In this document: piece by piece, positions 2,360 to 14,204 of the stretch
How the letters are laid out: the number at the start of each line of letters is the position of its first letter
How positions within the stretch are numbered: the stretch's first letter is position 1
Translations under genes and position numbers: made by a program
Source of the DNA: Chloroflexota bacterium
GTDB lineage: Bacteria; Chloroflexota; UBA11872; VXNJ01
DNA length: 64,000 bases
NCBI GenBank assembly: GCA_009840625.1
Contig: VXNJ01000007.1
Location: forward strand, 1-64,000
Direction: 5' to 3'
Notes under the pieces: generated by a model
Told to the model about the DNA's origin: nothing
The model's input: only the letters and a program-made list of their open reading frames with translations
The model's database searches: none

Positions 2360-4678
2360 TCAATCCCCCGGGCCCTGTCGCTGGCGCACTATCCGTTTCA
2401 GCAACCGGTGCTCGCGGCGCGCAAGTTCCGGGTCCGCTTTCAATGTCCGCTCGGCCCACCGCCGTGCCAGTTCGTTGGCGGCCGGGTTCTGCCAGGCCTT
2501 GATCACGTCCGGGTCGTACCCGCTCTGCCGGACCCCCAGCAACTCGCCGGGCCCGCGCAGGCGCAGGTCCACCTCGGCCAGCTCGAACCCGCTGTTGGTC
2601 TCGGTCATCGCCCGGAGCCGCTCGTTCTCGCTAGCATCCTGGCTGTCAGACATCAGCAGGCAGAGGCTTTCGCGCCGGCCGCGTCCGACCCGCCCGCGCA
2701 GTTGGTGCAGCTGGGCCAGGCCGAACCGCTCCGCGCCCTCGATCATCACCACCGTGGCATTGGGGACGTCCACGCCCACCTCCACCACCGAGGTGGTCAC
2801 CAGGACCTTGGTGCGGCCGGCGCTGAACGCGTCCATTTGCGCCTGCTTGCGCACTGGCGGAAGCTGGCCGTGCAGAAGCCCAAGTCCCTCCCCCAGGCCG
2901 GACAGGGGTCCGCCGCGCAGACGCTTGTACTCGTCTTCGACGGAGCGCGCCGGAACCGACTCGGAGGCCTCGACCAGCGGACAGACGATGTACGCCTGGG
3001 CGCCGCTGGCAACTTCTGAGAGCAGCGTGTCGTAGGCGCGCTGGCGCTGCCGGGGGGATGCCAGGATGGTCTTAATCTCCCGGCGTCCGGCCGGGAGTTC
3101 GCGGATCTGGGAAACATCGATTTCGCTGCTGACCGCCGCCGCCAGGGTCCTGGGAATCGGGGTGGCGCTCATGATCAGGGTGTGCGGGTTGCCGTCGCCC
3201 TTGGCCCTGAGGGTCGCCCGCTGGCGGACCCCGAAGCGGTGCTGCTCGTCCACGATCACCAGGTTCAGGTTGGCGAACCGGGCCGCCTCCGAAACCAGCG
3301 CATGGGTGCCGACGACCACATCGACTTCCGCGTCAGCGACCCGGTCCCAGCTGCGCGTCTGCTCGCCCGGCGTGAGCGCGGCCGTGACCAGTTCGACCCG
3401 GACGCCGGCCGGGCCGAGCAACTGCTGGAGCGTTTGGTGGTGCTGGTTGGCCAGGATCTGGGTGGGCGCCATCAGCGCGCCCTGGAATCCCGCGCTGGCG
3501 GCCGCCAGCAGCGCGCACGCCGCCACCGCGGTCTTGCCGGATCCGACGTCGCCTTGCAGCAGGCGATGCATCGCAAACGGTTGCCGCAGGTCGTCCAGGA
3601 TTTCGTCGATGGCCCGGCTTTGGCCGGCGGTGAGTGCGAACGGAAGTTCCGCGACGAACCCTTCGACCTTGGACTCGAACTCGCTGATCGCCTGACTGGA
3701 AGACTGCTCGCGCCAGCGCCGCCGCCGCCCCGCAGCTGCCAGGTGGTAGTAGAAGAGCTGGTCGAAATCCAGCCGCATCTGCGCCCGGTCGCGTGCCTCT
3801 TCGTCGGGTGGGAAATGCTTGTCGGCCAGGGCCCGGCGGCGGTCGGGCAGACCGGTCTCGGCGATGATTGCGGGCGGGAGCGGTTCGGGCAACTCGGGGA
3901 GCGCGTCCGCGATGATCCGCGCACTCCAGGCCCGCCGCTGCTTCTGGGTGATCCCGGGAACCTGCGGATAGATCGGCACGATCCGCCCGGCGTTGGGCGA
4001 TCCCTCCGGGTTCAGTTCGTATTCGGGGCTGTTTAGCTTGCCCTGCCTGATCGCCCCGAAAAACGCCACCTGGCTGCGCCCGCGCAGGCTATCGGCCAGA
4101 TAGGGCTGATTGAACCAGGTGGCCTGGATTCGGCCCGAACCATCGCTCAGGGTGGCGGTTGTCACGCTGAGTCCGCGCCGCGGGCGGCCAGTTGAAATCC
4201 GCACGACGTCGGCCAGCACGGCAACCGCGCCGTCCTGCGGGAGAGCGGCGATCTTGCCGAAGACCCGCCGGTCCTCGTAGTCGCGGGGGAACTTCCCAAG
4301 AAGATTCGAGCAAGTCTTTATTCCGCGTTCGGCAAGCGCGGCAATTTGCTTGGGATTGGCCCGGGGCAGCTGCGAGACCGGATCATTGAGTCGCACCCGG
4401 GCGCGGCGTCGGCTCGGTCTGCGCGGCGCCCGGTCCGCCTGCGCCACCTCCCGGGGAAGCCCCTGCAGGGCGTTTTCCAGACCGGCGCGGCGCTGCTCCT
4501 GGGATAGCCGCCCATAGTCGACCAGCGGCGCCAGCACCGTGGCCTGCGGGCCGCTCAGCTGACCCTGCAGCAGCGCACCCAGGCCGCCGGTCACCCTTTT
4601 GTCGCGGCAGCCATCTTCCAGTTCGGCGCGCAGGATCCGCGCCAGCGCGATCGGGTCGAGTTGCCTATTCGATGCCAA
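2360..4678 (-). CDS. recG: ATP-dependent DNA helicase RecG
   Basis: 772 residues. RecG remodels stalled replication forks and Holliday junctions. An N-terminal extension of about 100 residues precedes the wedge/OB domain. The helicase motifs are intact: Walker A GDVGSGKT near residue 373, VDEQHRFGVRQR near 478, SATPIPRT about 30 residues later, and RGRVGRG near 660. The start is TTG at 4678, inside the 3' end of the preceding DAK2 gene (14-nt overlap), so translational coupling is likely. The fakA-recG-rsmD-coaD order resembles the recG neighbourhood of many Gram-positive bacteria. Confidence 0.97.
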   Translation of the reverse strand: MASNRQLDPIALARILRAELEDGCRDKRVTGGLGALLQGQLSGPQATVLAPLVDYGRLSQEQRRAGLENALQGLPREVAQADRAPRRPSRRRARVRLNDPVSQLPRANPKQIAALAERGIKTCSNLLGKFPRDYEDRRVFGKIAALPQDGAVAVLADVVRISTGRPRRGLSVTTATLSDGSGRIQATWFNQPYLADSLRGRSQVAFFGAIRQGKLNSPEYELNPEGSPNAGRIVPIYPQVPGITQKQRRAWSARIIADALPELPEPLPPAIIAETGLPDRRRALADKHFPPDEEARDRAQMRLDFDQLFYYHLAAAGRRRRWREQSSSQAISEFESKVEGFVAELPFALTAGQSRAIDEILDDLRQPFAMHRLLQGDVGSGKTAVAACALLAAASAGFQGALMAPTQILANQHHQTLQQLLGPAGVRVELVTAALTPGEQTRSWDRVADAEVDVVVGTHALVSEAARFANLNLVIVDEQHRFGVRQRATLRAKGDGNPHTLIMSATPIPRTLAAAVSSEIDVSQIRELPAGRREIKTILASPRQRQRAYDTLLSEVASGAQAYIVCPLVEASESVPARSVEDEYKRLRGGPLSGLGEGLGLLHGQLPPVRKQAQMDAFSAGRTKVLVTTSVVEVGVDVPNATVVMIEGAERFGLAQLHQLRGRVGRGRRESLCLLMSDSQDASENERLRAMTETNSGFELAEVDLRLRGPGELLGVRQSGYDPDVIKAWQNPAANELARRWAERTLKADPELARREHRLLKRIVRQRQGPGD

Positions 4679-9726: not shown

Positions 9727-10677
9727 CTAACTGGCTGATTTGCGCGCCGACCCCGACCAAGGCTGGGAAAGCAGGTTCTCGTAGCCCAGCACGAAGTCCT
9801 GGGCCGACATCGGTTTGCGGCCGGCCGGTTGGAGGGTGATTATTTCCAACAACCCGTCACCTGTACCTACGAAGATTCTCCCGTCGCGGACTTTCGCCTT
9901 GCCGGGCGAGACCCGGAGCTTTATCTCGTCGGCCAGCCGGCATTCGAGGATCTTGATGCTCTTGCCGGCAACCCGGGTGCGCAGACCGGGCCAACCCAGA
10001 TAGGCCCGCCACTGGTCGAATATCCGCCGCGCCGGAAGCTGCCAGTCGACGTCGGCGAAATTGCGCTTGAGAATCGGGGCGAAGGTCGCGCGCTCCTCGT
10101 CCTGCGGGCGGGCGTCTTCGTAGCCTTCCTGCAGCTTCTCCAGCGTCTGGGCCAGCAGTTCGGCGCCTTCCACGGCCAGCCTGCGCGAGAGGCGCGGGGC
10201 GGTCTCCTCTTCCTCGATGGCCACTTCGCGCTGGGCCAGCATCGGGCCGGAATCGATCCCGGTATCCATGCGGATGACGGTGATGCCGGTGACGACCTCG
10301 CCGGCCGCGATCGCGCTCTGGATCGGCGAGGCGCCGCGATACAAGGGCAGCAGCGAGGGATGCAGATTCAGCACTCCGGCCGGCGCCAGCGAGAGGATCG
10401 GCTTGTTGAATTTCTTGCCGTAAGCAACCGCGACCAGGACGTCCGGCCGCAGCGAGCGCAGGTGGTCCAGCACCGGCTCGGCGTTGATGTCGTCCGGCTG
10501 GATAACCGGCAGCCGCAACGACCGCGCGACCGCCACGACCGGCGGCGGTTTCACCAACCGCGCCCGGCCGACCGGACGGGACGGCCGCGTAACCACCAGC
10601 GGAATTTCGTGGCGGTTCACCAACAGCCGTAGCGAGGGCGTGGCGAATTCGGCCGTGCCGAAGAAGATGACCCTCAT
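9727..10677 (-). CDS. fmt: Methionyl-tRNA formyltransferase
   Basis: 316 residues, the normal length. It formylates initiator Met-tRNA with 10-formyltetrahydrofolate. It starts RVIFFGTAEFATPSL, and the catalytic region holds the family signature LNLHPSLLPLYRGASPIQ near residues 105-123 and GITVIRMDTGIDSGPML. The C-terminal tRNA-binding domain begins near residue 205. The ATG overlaps the def stop by 4 nt (ATGA), linking formylation and deformylation in one transcript. Confidence 0.97.
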   Translation of the reverse strand: MRVIFFGTAEFATPSLRLLVNRHEIPLVVTRPSRPVGRARLVKPPPVVAVARSLRLPVIQPDDINAEPVLDHLRSLRPDVLVAVAYGKKFNKPILSLAPAGVLNLHPSLLPLYRGASPIQSAIAAGEVVTGITVIRMDTGIDSGPMLAQREVAIEEEETAPRLSRRLAVEGAELLAQTLEKLQEGYEDARPQDEERATFAPILKRNFADVDWQLPARRIFDQWRAYLGWPGLRTRVAGKSIKILECRLADEIKLRVSPGKAKVRDGRIFVGTGDGLLEIITLQPAGRKPMSAQDFVLGYENLLSQPWSGSARKSAS

Positions 10678-11177
10678 GCCGGCGCGGCAGCTTCCTCGGC
10701 GGGCGCCGCTTCGGCGAACTGCAGTTCGCCGCCCTCGACGATCCTCTCGGTGAACATGATCCCGTCCAGGTGGTCGATCTCGTGCTGGATGATCCGTGCC
10801 AGGAAACCCTCCGCCGCCAGCGAGCGGGCGCGTCCCCGCTCGTCGAGGGCCTTAACCCGGATATTCAGATGGCGCTCGACCGGACCGAACCAGCCCGGCA
10901 GCGAGAGGCAGGCCTCGTCGGCCACCTCGGACCCGCTGGCCTTGGAGATGCGCGGGTTCACCAGGGTGAGGACTTCGGCGTCCTCGGATTCCTGACACAC
11001 GATCAAGCGCAGCGGACGACCGACCTGCGGTGCGGCCAATCCCACACCGGAAGCCGATCGCATCGTTTCTTGCATATCGTTCGCCAGGCGCCGGACAGAA
11101 TCGTCCACTTTGGGGACCCGTGCGGCCACGCGTCCCAGCATTGGGTGTTGTGCCGGCAGTATCGGCAATACCGCCAT
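10674..11177 (-). CDS. def: Peptide deformylase
   Basis: About 167 residues from the ATG at 11177. It removes the N-formyl group from new proteins. The three family motifs are GVGLAAPQVG, EACLSLPG (Cys metal ligand) and QHEIDHLDG (two His ligands plus the catalytic Glu). The frame is open 34 codons further upstream, but that part overlaps the end of priA and does not look like a Def N-terminus. The chosen start gives the family-like AVLPILPAQHPML. The C-terminal tail is Ala/Glu-rich. It lies 10 nt after priA. Confidence 0.95.
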   Translation of the reverse strand: MAVLPILPAQHPMLGRVAARVPKVDDSVRRLANDMQETMRSASGVGLAAPQVGRPLRLIVCQESEDAEVLTLVNPRISKASGSEVADEACLSLPGWFGPVERHLNIRVKALDERGRARSLAAEGFLARIIQHEIDHLDGIMFTERIVEGGELQFAEAAPAEEAAAPA

Positions 11178-11187
11178 AACGCAATCG

Positions 11188-13638
11188 TTAATAGAAATCG
11201 ACCGGATCGACATCCACCACCCAACCACCGTGGGGGATGCCGAAAACCGGGCGTAATTGGCCCGGTCCAGATAGCACAATCATATGCCAGCGGAAGATTC
11301 CCCTCTGTCGCCACACCTGGCACTGGGCCGGTCCCCAAATCTGGGGCGGGTCATCGCCGCCGTCCGAATCGACCAGTTTCGATTCGATCTGCTCGCTCAA
11401 CGCCAGCGCTTCGGATTCGGCCCGCTGGGGTTGCCGGTTGCCGATCACGAACCGGGTAAGTTCGCGGAACGGCGGCATCCGGTAACGCCGCCGTAGTTCG
11501 ATTTCGGTGCGGAAGAACTTCAGGTAGCTGCCGGTGCGGACCGCTTCCAGGACGTAGCTTTCGCTGTCGCGGGCCTGCAGCAGCATCGTTCCCTCGATGT
11601 TGTCGGCCAGGGTCACGTCGCGCAGCCGCGAGAGAGTCTGGTACACCCTTTCGGGGGCCTGGTAATCGGGGAAATTCAGTCCGAAGTCGGCCTGGACGAC
11701 GCCCAGCAGATCGGCGCGCAGGTATTCGGCGAACGCCAGCAGGCGGGTGGTTCCGACCAGGATGTTGACCACCCCGCGCGAGAACCGTTGCGCGTTGCGC
11801 TGGCAGGCCTGCGGGCTAAGGTCCGAATCGATCCGGTCGATTCGCGCCCGCGGCATCAGCGAGCGCAACGCTCGCACCACCGATTGGGTGCCGTAGCCGT
11901 ACGTCCGCAGCGCCGGCGAACCGCATTCCGGGCAGGCCTCGGGCGGCGGGCTGGAATCGCCGCAGATGTGACAGACGAGGGCGTCGCGGTCCTCGTGCCA
12001 GAAGAGCGAGGCCGAACAATAGCGACAGGTGCAGCGAAAACCGCACTCGCGGCAGGCGGTCGCGGTGGCTGATCCGCGGGTGGCAACGTGCACGACCGAG
12101 CGCTGCCCGGCGGCGAACGCGGTCTCCAGCGCCTCGCAGAGGTCCTCGGAGATCATTCCGCCCGGTCCCATCAGGGTTGCCGAGCGCATATCGATGATCT
12201 GGGCCACTCCGGATCCGGCGGCGTTGCCCCAGCCGCGGCCGACCTTCATCCGCAGCTGACGCAACAGGCGGGCCGACCGCAGCAGGACGAAACGGATCGT
12301 CTCGTGTTCGACTTCGTTGAAGGTCGATACCAGCGGCGTGGCGGTCCCCAGGACCATGGGTATGTCGGCGATCCGGGCCAGCTCCCGGGCGGCCTGGGCG
12401 GCGCTGACGGTGCGCAGCGGGGCCGCTTTGTAAAGCCGGTCTTCCTCGCGGTCGACGATCACCAGCCCGAGGTTCGTAAGCGGGGCCCAGACCGCCGGCG
12501 GGTGACCGATAAGTACGTCCACCTCGCCGGCCCGCAACGCCCGCCACAATCCCACCCGCTGGCTGGGGGTGGTTGCATCGGAAAGAACCACCGAGCGTCC
12601 GGAAAGCTCCGGGATAAGGGCCCGGCCCAGCGCCGCCGCCTCGGCCTGGCTGGGGGCCAGCAACAGCACCTGGCGATCGGCGGCAAGCATCCGGTTGATC
12701 ACCCGCAGGTAGGCGGGCAGGCGTTCGGCCAGCCGGCCCTGCAGCAGCAGGGAACCGTAGACGGGGCGCTCCAGGAATCCCTCCAGGGCGTTCTGGGCGG
12801 CCAGGTCCTCCATGTCCTCGCCGGGGTATTTGCCCAGCTCCGGCAGGGCGAAGCGCCTTCGCAGGTCGACCCAGCCGGTCCGGGCCAGGTTTTTCAGCGA
12901 CGCCCGCGAGCCGCCGGCTGCGAGCAGATCTCGCACCGCCACCGGTTCTCCGGCGGCGATCAGCCGCAACAGCAGGCGGCGCTGCGCCGGCGCCCGGGCC
13001 AGGTCCTGGATGCGGGCCAGGGCCTCGGCCGGCGGAATCGTCAACTCGGCCACCGGGGTGCCGGTCTCCGGCAGCTCCAGCTGGCTCCACCGTCGCAACC
13101 GCCCCAAACCCACCAGCTCGTTCAGAGCGTTGGCCGAAACCGGCCGGCCGACCTGGGCCGTGATCTCGGCGCGGGTGCCCACCCGCAGCTCCTCCAGCGC
13201 GGCCACGATCGAGCGGCGGTGCCGGCTCAGCCCGTCGGCTTCGGCCGCCGGGGCCGAGGCGAATCGGTGGCTCACGTACTTGCCAATCCGCGGCGGCAAC
13301 ATCGCCTCCAGGACCGAACCGATCGGGGTCGCGAATCGATCGGCCGTCCAGGCCGCCAGGTGCCGCTGCAGCTGTGGCACCAGCGACGCCAGTTCCAGGA
13401 TGGCCAGGACCGGCTTGGTGCGCAGCGGCGGGGGCTCCTCGCTGACCCCGAATACCACTCCGAGCAGCTCCCGGCGTCCGAATTCGACCAGCACCAGCTG
13501 TCCGGGGGCTATCTGGCGGGCGAACTGGGCGCGCGCCTGATAGCTGAACAATTGCGAACCGCGGATCGGCGAGCCCAGCACCGCCACCTCGGCGTAGCGG
13601 ACCGCCTCCGGTCGGGCAGAATCCCGGTCTTCGCTCAA
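11188..13638 (-). CDS. priA: PriA-family primosomal protein lacking helicase motifs
   Basis: About 816 residues from a TTG at 13638 that overlaps the gmk stop (TTGA). PriA reloads the replisome at stalled forks. The N-terminal 3'-DNA-binding domain is present (about residues 1-110), and the zinc module is intact with eight cysteines at about 526-570 (CRECGFRC, CRYC, CHIC, CPECG). The ATPase motifs are gone. The Walker A slot at about 293 reads LLLQGRLAERL with no GKT. The DEEH box at about 394 reads DREE, and the motif VI region at about 670 reads SRLRDVTLADN instead of QVAGRAGR. Actinobacterial PriA proteins show similar loss. I infer a non-helicase loading or structural role. An upstream in-frame start would extend into gmk and gives Arg-rich sequence unlike PriA. 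Confidence 0.88.
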   Translation of the reverse strand: MSEDRDSARPEAVRYAEVAVLGSPIRGSQLFSYQARAQFARQIAPGQLVLVEFGRRELLGVVFGVSEEPPPLRTKPVLAILELASLVPQLQRHLAAWTADRFATPIGSVLEAMLPPRIGKYVSHRFASAPAAEADGLSRHRRSIVAALEELRVGTRAEITAQVGRPVSANALNELVGLGRLRRWSQLELPETGTPVAELTIPPAEALARIQDLARAPAQRRLLLRLIAAGEPVAVRDLLAAGGSRASLKNLARTGWVDLRRRFALPELGKYPGEDMEDLAAQNALEGFLERPVYGSLLLQGRLAERLPAYLRVINRMLAADRQVLLLAPSQAEAAALGRALIPELSGRSVVLSDATTPSQRVGLWRALRAGEVDVLIGHPPAVWAPLTNLGLVIVDREEDRLYKAAPLRTVSAAQAARELARIADIPMVLGTATPLVSTFNEVEHETIRFVLLRSARLLRQLRMKVGRGWGNAAGSGVAQIIDMRSATLMGPGGMISEDLCEALETAFAAGQRSVVHVATRGSATATACRECGFRCTCRYCSASLFWHEDRDALVCHICGDSSPPPEACPECGSPALRTYGYGTQSVVRALRSLMPRARIDRIDSDLSPQACQRNAQRFSRGVVNILVGTTRLLAFAEYLRADLLGVVQADFGLNFPDYQAPERVYQTLSRLRDVTLADNIEGTMLLQARDSESYVLEAVRTGSYLKFFRTEIELRRRYRMPPFRELTRFVIGNRQPQRAESEALALSEQIESKLVDSDGGDDPPQIWGPAQCQVWRQRGIFRWHMIVLSGPGQLRPVFGIPHGGWVVDVDPVDFY

Positions 13639-14204
13639 GACGCGCCGCCGATGATCGCGGCGATTTCGGCAACCGCCTGATCCAGCCGGTCGCGCCGGTT
13701 CACCACCTGATGCTGGCAAGTGCGCCCGAACTGATCGTCGGCGGAAAGCTGGGCTTGGCGCGATCGCAGCGATTGCTCGTCCTCGCCCCTTTCGCGCAGC
13801 CGGCGCTCCAGCTCGGCCGAGTTTTCGGCGCGCAGGAATATCACCGGGACTGCGGGGATCTGCTCGCGGACCGCCGCCGCGCCCTGCGGGTCGATCCGCA
13901 GGATCACGTCGTGTCCGGCCCTCAGCAGGCGATCGACTTCGGCCCGCGGCGTCCCGTAGCGGCGGCCGAATACCCGGGCCCATTCCAGGAACCGGCCCTC
14001 GGCCAGCCAACGGTCGAATTCGGCGTCGCTGATGAAGTAATGATTAACCCCCTCGCGCTCGTTGGGGCGTGGAGCGCGCGTGATTGCCGTTACCGCCCGC
14101 CGCAGATTGGGAATCCGCGCCAGCAGCCCTTCGATGACCGCATCCTTGCCCGAACCCGAAGATCCGGTCAAGACGAACAATCGTCCTTGTGCCGGGATTG
14201 CCAA
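13635..14204 (-). CDS. gmk: Guanylate kinase
   Basis: 189 residues. It converts GMP and ATP to GDP and ADP. The P-loop is VLTGSSGSGKDAVIEGLL at about residues 11-28; the Asp after GK replaces the usual Ser/Thr, a variant also known in other bacterial Gmk proteins. The GMP-binding part TRAPRPNEREGVNHYFIS follows. FLEWARVFGRRYGTP and DVILRIDPQGA complete the fold. It opens the minus-strand operon with priA, def and fmt, and is divergent from the yceD gene, with 60 nt between the starts. Confidence 0.96.
   Translation of the reverse strand: MAIPAQGRLFVLTGSSGSGKDAVIEGLLARIPNLRRAVTAITRAPRPNEREGVNHYFISDAEFDRWLAEGRFLEWARVFGRRYGTPRAEVDRLLRAGHDVILRIDPQGAAAVREQIPAVPVIFLRAENSAELERRLRERGEDEQSLRSRQAQLSADDQFGRTCQHQVVNRRDRLDQAVAEIAAIIGGAS

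Follow-up and report, generated by a model that had tools for sequence, protein, structure and literature searches.

Few bacterial proteins of repair and replication are as widely conserved as PriA, whose helicase is commonly seen as the point of the protein. The locus studied here, in a window of 64,000 nucleotides (the whole stretch of DNA that was analysed), raises the question of what a PriA can still be for when its helicase motifs have been replaced, and of how such a protein arose. Our answer, which we hold to be probable, is that it is a pseudohelicase: the normal PriA of the class ancestor would have lost ATP binding and hydrolysis, and stayed as a scaffold for fork recognition.

The gene, its domains and its helicase motifs

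The first-pass annotation had described a PriA reading frame at 11188-13638 that keeps the PriA layout and all zinc cysteines but has no recognisable helicase motif. The frame is real and correctly located, but the coding sequence, on the minus strand, likely starts at 13602 and not at 13638. The open frame extends upstream of a GTG (13600-13602) into gmk, and this GTG is the likely start because the relatives and the profile of the 3' DNA-binding domain begin there or just after.

11188..13602 (-), coding sequence of the priA pseudohelicase, 804 aa, GTG start; 298 bits with TIGR00595 and 347 bits with PRK05580, full-length homology to relatives
13288..13602 (-), 3' DNA-binding domain, residues 1-105, kept; PF17764, E=3e-17
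12808..13287 (-), winged-helix region, residues 106-265, kept; secondary structure in the AlphaFold2 model, and fold match to PriA
12709..12747 (-), former Walker A (motif I), now LLQGRLAERLPAY; no GKT, Lys replaced by Arg, from the alignment
12442..12453 (-), former DEEH (motif II), now DREE, from the alignment
12334..12348 (-), motif III, GTATP for canonical GSATP, still recognisable in the alignment
11923..12054 (-), zinc-binding cysteine-rich region; PF18319, 8 Cys and 2 His all present
11731..11754 (-), former motif V, GTQMLAKG in E. coli and GTTRLLAF here, from the alignment
11605..11628 (-), former motif VI (QxxGRxGR), QVAGRAGR in E. coli and RLRDVTLA here, from the alignment
11272..11472 (-), PriA C-terminal domain, kept; PF18074, E=2e-6

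With its 298 bits the protein passes the curated TIGR00595 cut-off of 230 bits. A Pfam scan matches PriA_3primeBD (PF17764), Zn_ribbon_PriA (PF18319) and PriA_C (PF18074), all above cut-off, and returns no DEAD or ResIII domain and only a sub-threshold Helicase_C; the layout is kept as had been claimed, together with the zinc cysteines (8 of 8). An AlphaFold2 model, for which the window protein was aligned with named relatives ('Chloroflexi bacterium' entries UBA6622 and SB0662_bin_44), has a pLDDT of 86 and a pTM of 0.84, with both RecA-like lobes predicted intact. Its first nine PDB matches in a Foldseek search are all PriA (E down to 4e-44), and the model predicts an overall PriA fold.

The motifs were compared by aligning the window PriA with E. 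coli PriA and 159 other PriAs. Where E. coli has GVTGSGKTE, the window protein reads G---AERLP (within QGRLAERLPAY), with an Arg in place of K230 and a former P-loop one residue shorter than that of E. coli. None of the four elements that mark PriA as an active SF2 motor (Walker A GKT, DEEH, motif V, motif VI) survives. The description of a protein devoid of helicase motifs holds for Walker A, DEEH and motif VI, to which motif V has to be added, but not for motif III, which is still recognisable; and motif IV has changed (NRRG to ATRG) in the window genome alone. Judged from the alignment, the canonical ATP site of this PriA is gone. Neither of the two findings named in the first pass as speaking against this was encountered: no ATP site preserved by other residues was seen, the catalytic residues invariant in canonical PriA having disappeared, and a profile search of the 2.27 Mb, 97%-complete genome gave no second PriA, the remaining TIGR00595 matches being helicase-domain stretches within long RecG/Mfd-type reading frames.

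Spread across the class and loss in one family

The host is a Chloroflexota genome, as had been suspected, and we sampled its class as five families, its own (f1) and f2, f3, f4 and f5. No PriA found in f1, f2, f4 and f5 (31 genomes, a few of them with partial PriA sequences) keeps motif I, II, V or VI where these are readable, so that the expectation of a class of non-helicase PriA wider than one genome is borne out in all class genomes that have a PriA. When residues invariant in 120 canonical PriAs were scored in 29 class PriAs, retention was 0% for the GKT of Walker A, for position 2 of DEEH and for the Gln and both Arg of motif VI, and 100% for the zinc Cys and His; 10 of the 11 invariant residues of the zinc region are kept at a level of at least 90%. 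The dN/dS of 15 informative close pairs lies between 0.10 and 0.29, the lobes being similar to the other domains, and class PriA is therefore under purifying selection. As far as sequences can tell, the motor-dead PriA is a class-wide pseudohelicase: a PriA homologue that has lost its catalytic residues and whose domains are conserved under selection.

The fifth family differs. Searches of nine f3 genomes, 77-94% complete, with the profile of the family, with that of the class and with PriA_C detected no PriA in any of them. In the window, priA sits in a tight gmk-priA-def-fmt run, a neighbourhood conserved across families:

13635..14204 (-), guanylate kinase gene gmk, upstream neighbour; sequence, and orthologous neighbours in f3, f4 and f5
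10674..11177 (-), peptide deformylase gene def, downstream neighbour; sequence and synteny
9727..10677 (-), methionyl-tRNA formyltransferase gene fmt; sequence and search across genomes

The order in f5 is gmk-DegT aminotransferase-priA-def-fmt, and in f3 it is gmk-DegT-def-fmt, or gmk abutting def-fmt, with priA missing. A DegT-type aminotransferase gene between gmk and def or priA is found in both families (L219, L221, L225 and L230), an arrangement that supports a sister relation between them; in the rpoB tree, f3 and f5 group together (100/99), as do f1, f2 and f4. In f3 the conserved gmk-(DegT)-def-fmt slot has cleanly lost its priA, and the simplest history is an active PriA that became dead at or near the base of the class and was then deleted in f3.

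This history lends itself to a reading in which the loss of helicase made PriA dispensable, leaving a minor or vestigial remnant on its way to the deletion seen in f3. In its favour are the nine f3 genomes with no detectable PriA, the f3 slot with priA missing, and the dead form carried by f5, the sister of f3; moreover, no PriA of its family has diverged further than that of the window (branch of 0.94 versus 0.41-0.56). However, the window lineage is fast-evolving overall (rpoB end branch of 0.58 versus 0.15-0.19 in its family), PriA frames are retained in 31 genomes, and the dN/dS values count against decay, as do the zinc residues, which are invariant in the other families. We consider this outcome unlikely, and a retained scaffold the better account.

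Less probable still is that other residues bind and use ATP, which would make the protein a motor whose active site is unusual. Such a motor could draw on the RecA-like lobes predicted intact, on the persistence of motif III and of the GT of motif V, and on family f2 (L011-L020), where the dead P-loop is now a new conserved stretch, approximately QGxExDRWxxYA, which hints at a new constraint there. But the Lys and Thr of Walker A, the Glu and His of motif II, the Lys and Gly of motif V and both Arg of motif VI have been lost together, while the K230R change alone abolishes the ATPase of E. coli PriA, according to work cited in PMC4504706.

Origin of the dead state within the phylum

Our phylum sample comprised 201 Chloroflexota genomes (26 of the class and 175 others). 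Most Chloroflexota score 480-630 bits with TIGR00595, some of them after joining split stretches, and the class roughly 300-360. Outside the class, all Chloroflexota PriAs that were read are canonical, except in two f30 genomes with altered motifs V and VI. These two (L148 and L164, in the 1.1 Mb genomes G092 and G215) keep GSGKS and DEEH, have GTALAAKS/KA as motif V and QAVGRLGR as motif VI, and sit on a long branch; they are possibly in a half-way state between canonical and dead.

In the full-length PriA tree all dead forms make one clade (100/99). When the helicase lobes are left out, a single dead clade appears in 38% of bootstraps (AU p = 0.43), so that the motor of f5 may have gone in a second, separate event.

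Actinobacterial PriA is known to lack helicase motifs, and a gene of this type gained by horizontal transfer could explain the window protein. Actinobacterial PriA has been called "smaller and very divergent" (PMC1193525), a divergence that the window PriA shares. Against transfer, PRK05580-type models give 347 bits on the window PriA and PRK14873 models, which we take to represent the actinobacterial type, give 68, with the same direction in four relatives, so that the protein does not belong to the PRK14873 type. In a search of 84,980 species its best relatives came from Chloroflexota, with no Actinobacteria in the 80 best loci, and the gmk-def-fmt context is common to the families. We reject an actinobacterial origin as highly improbable, on profile scores, our PriA tree having taken in no actinobacterial sequence. 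That the gene is a pseudogene, or an artefact of sequencing or assembly, can be dismissed outright: nothing was found in favour of this, the frame is open, and the same motifs are lost across four families in 31 genomes from many assemblies, one single-contig genome included, at a dN/dS of 0.10-0.29.

Since PRK05580 models match far better than PRK14873, the class pseudohelicase most likely arose inside Chloroflexota, separately from those of Actinobacteria and Deinococcota, and represents an additional origin. The suggestion of a separately evolved non-helicase PriA thus looks right.

Loader partners, proposed working and known systems

All 26 class genomes that the phylum sample contains have DciA (PF05258), one f3 genome and the window genome (at G000:C9:135437-135691) among them, and so do 46 of the 175 other Chloroflexota; a DciA match came from one of five further f3 genomes and from none of the remaining four. 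DnaD (PF07261) is absent from all 11 class genomes tested, and the search for DnaI in the class gave nothing above weak DnaA-like matches, PF01695 being a noisy test for DnaI (it matches DnaA and IS21) that we read only by position beside DnaD. DnaD with an adjoining DnaI-like AAA gene occurs in 6/6 tested canonical-PriA genomes without DciA, and families f17 and f20 have canonical PriA together with DciA. Across the Chloroflexota families tested, DnaD and DciA have complementary distributions, and a loader swap within the phylum is suggested. The gene content points to a class without a recognisable primosome of the PriA-DnaD-DnaI type, with DciA as its loader candidate.

DciA is not, for that, the cause of helicase loss. 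It occurs in those 46 other Chloroflexota, most DciA-bearing families retain a high-scoring PriA, and its role can have been at most permissive. It is also found in Deinococcota and actinobacterial controls, and the link between DciA and dead PriA is an association only, because controls expected to have normal PriA carry DciA too. Separately, several near-complete Chloroflexota outside the class have no detectable PriA: G054 (f18), G132 (f41), G169 (f55), G111 and G125 (f38), G119 (f39) and possibly G174 (f19). DciA was in none of those tested; in G054, G132 and G169 DnaD was not found, and a DnaI-like AAA gene may be present.

The window also holds a RecG, already noted for its intact motifs, which we read in the translation as GSGKT, DEQH, SATP and QLRGRVGRG:

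2363..4678 (-), recG reading frame, helicase motifs intact; translation

We propose the following working for the scaffold. A normal PriA in the ancestor of the class would have lost ATP binding and hydrolysis. The 3' DNA-binding domain and the winged helix would grip an abandoned fork or D-loop, and the C-terminal domain would contact branched DNA and SSB. A platform made up of the zinc region and the RecA-like lobes, now without a working motor, would bring DnaB to the lagging-strand template, DnaB being delivered together with DciA or handed over by it through a presumed contact. Recruitment of DnaB would then proceed without ATP, and any unwinding would be left to another helicase, perhaps RecG. 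Three points weigh against this scaffold. Within the class, family f3 manages with no detectable PriA, so that the scaffold is not indispensable in this background; DciA is also in many Chloroflexota with canonical PriA and does not explain the loss by itself; and residual nucleotide binding would be compatible with the sequence evidence. More tentatively, and with some doubt, motor-dead PriA and DciA could form an ATP-independent restart platform in the absence of the DnaD/DnaI primosome, with a natural series from active (rest of the phylum) to dead (f1, f2, f4 and f5) to none (f3), the motor being lost first and the scaffold later.

Another motor-dead lineage under selection supports fork binding and helicase recruitment as the core job of PriA. 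Family f3 offers a testable case of fork restart in its absence, and the complementary distribution of DnaD and DciA is a lead on which loader pairs with which PriA. No relevant paper on PriA in Chloroflexi came out of a literature search; in Caulobacter, DciA has been suggested to act with PriA at forks (PMC9825169).

The closest parallel is the PriA of D. radiodurans, which has no ATPase and does not unwind, binds forks and ssDNA nearly normally, contacts DnaB, and matches poorly in motifs I and II (PMC4504706). Like it, the window protein, known here from its sequence, appears motor-dead with its DNA-binding parts kept, has Arg for the Walker Lys, and comes with no clear PriB or DnaT, the DciA family also being present in Deinococcota controls. 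In the window PriA, by contrast, the loss takes in motifs V and VI as well as I and II, and the phylum is an unrelated one. It resembles actinobacterial PriA (PRK14873 type, Rv1402) in having no detectable helicase motifs and a host with DciA and no DnaC; yet it belongs to a different sequence lineage, and has the full length of 804 aa and a clear PriA_C, whereas the PF18074 model for this domain has no match in C. glutamicum. The M. tuberculosis PriA (Rv1402) is listed as essential (PMC5694481). With canonical PriA (E. coli, K. pneumoniae; 4nl4, 6dgd, 8fak) the window protein shares domain order, zinc ligands and predicted fold, but not the ATPase or helicase signature. PriA pseudohelicases are already known in Deinococcota, where this was shown biochemically, and in Actinobacteria, by the absence of motifs; the present protein is a further member of that kind, and what it adds is the apparent series from active to dead to lost within one phylum.
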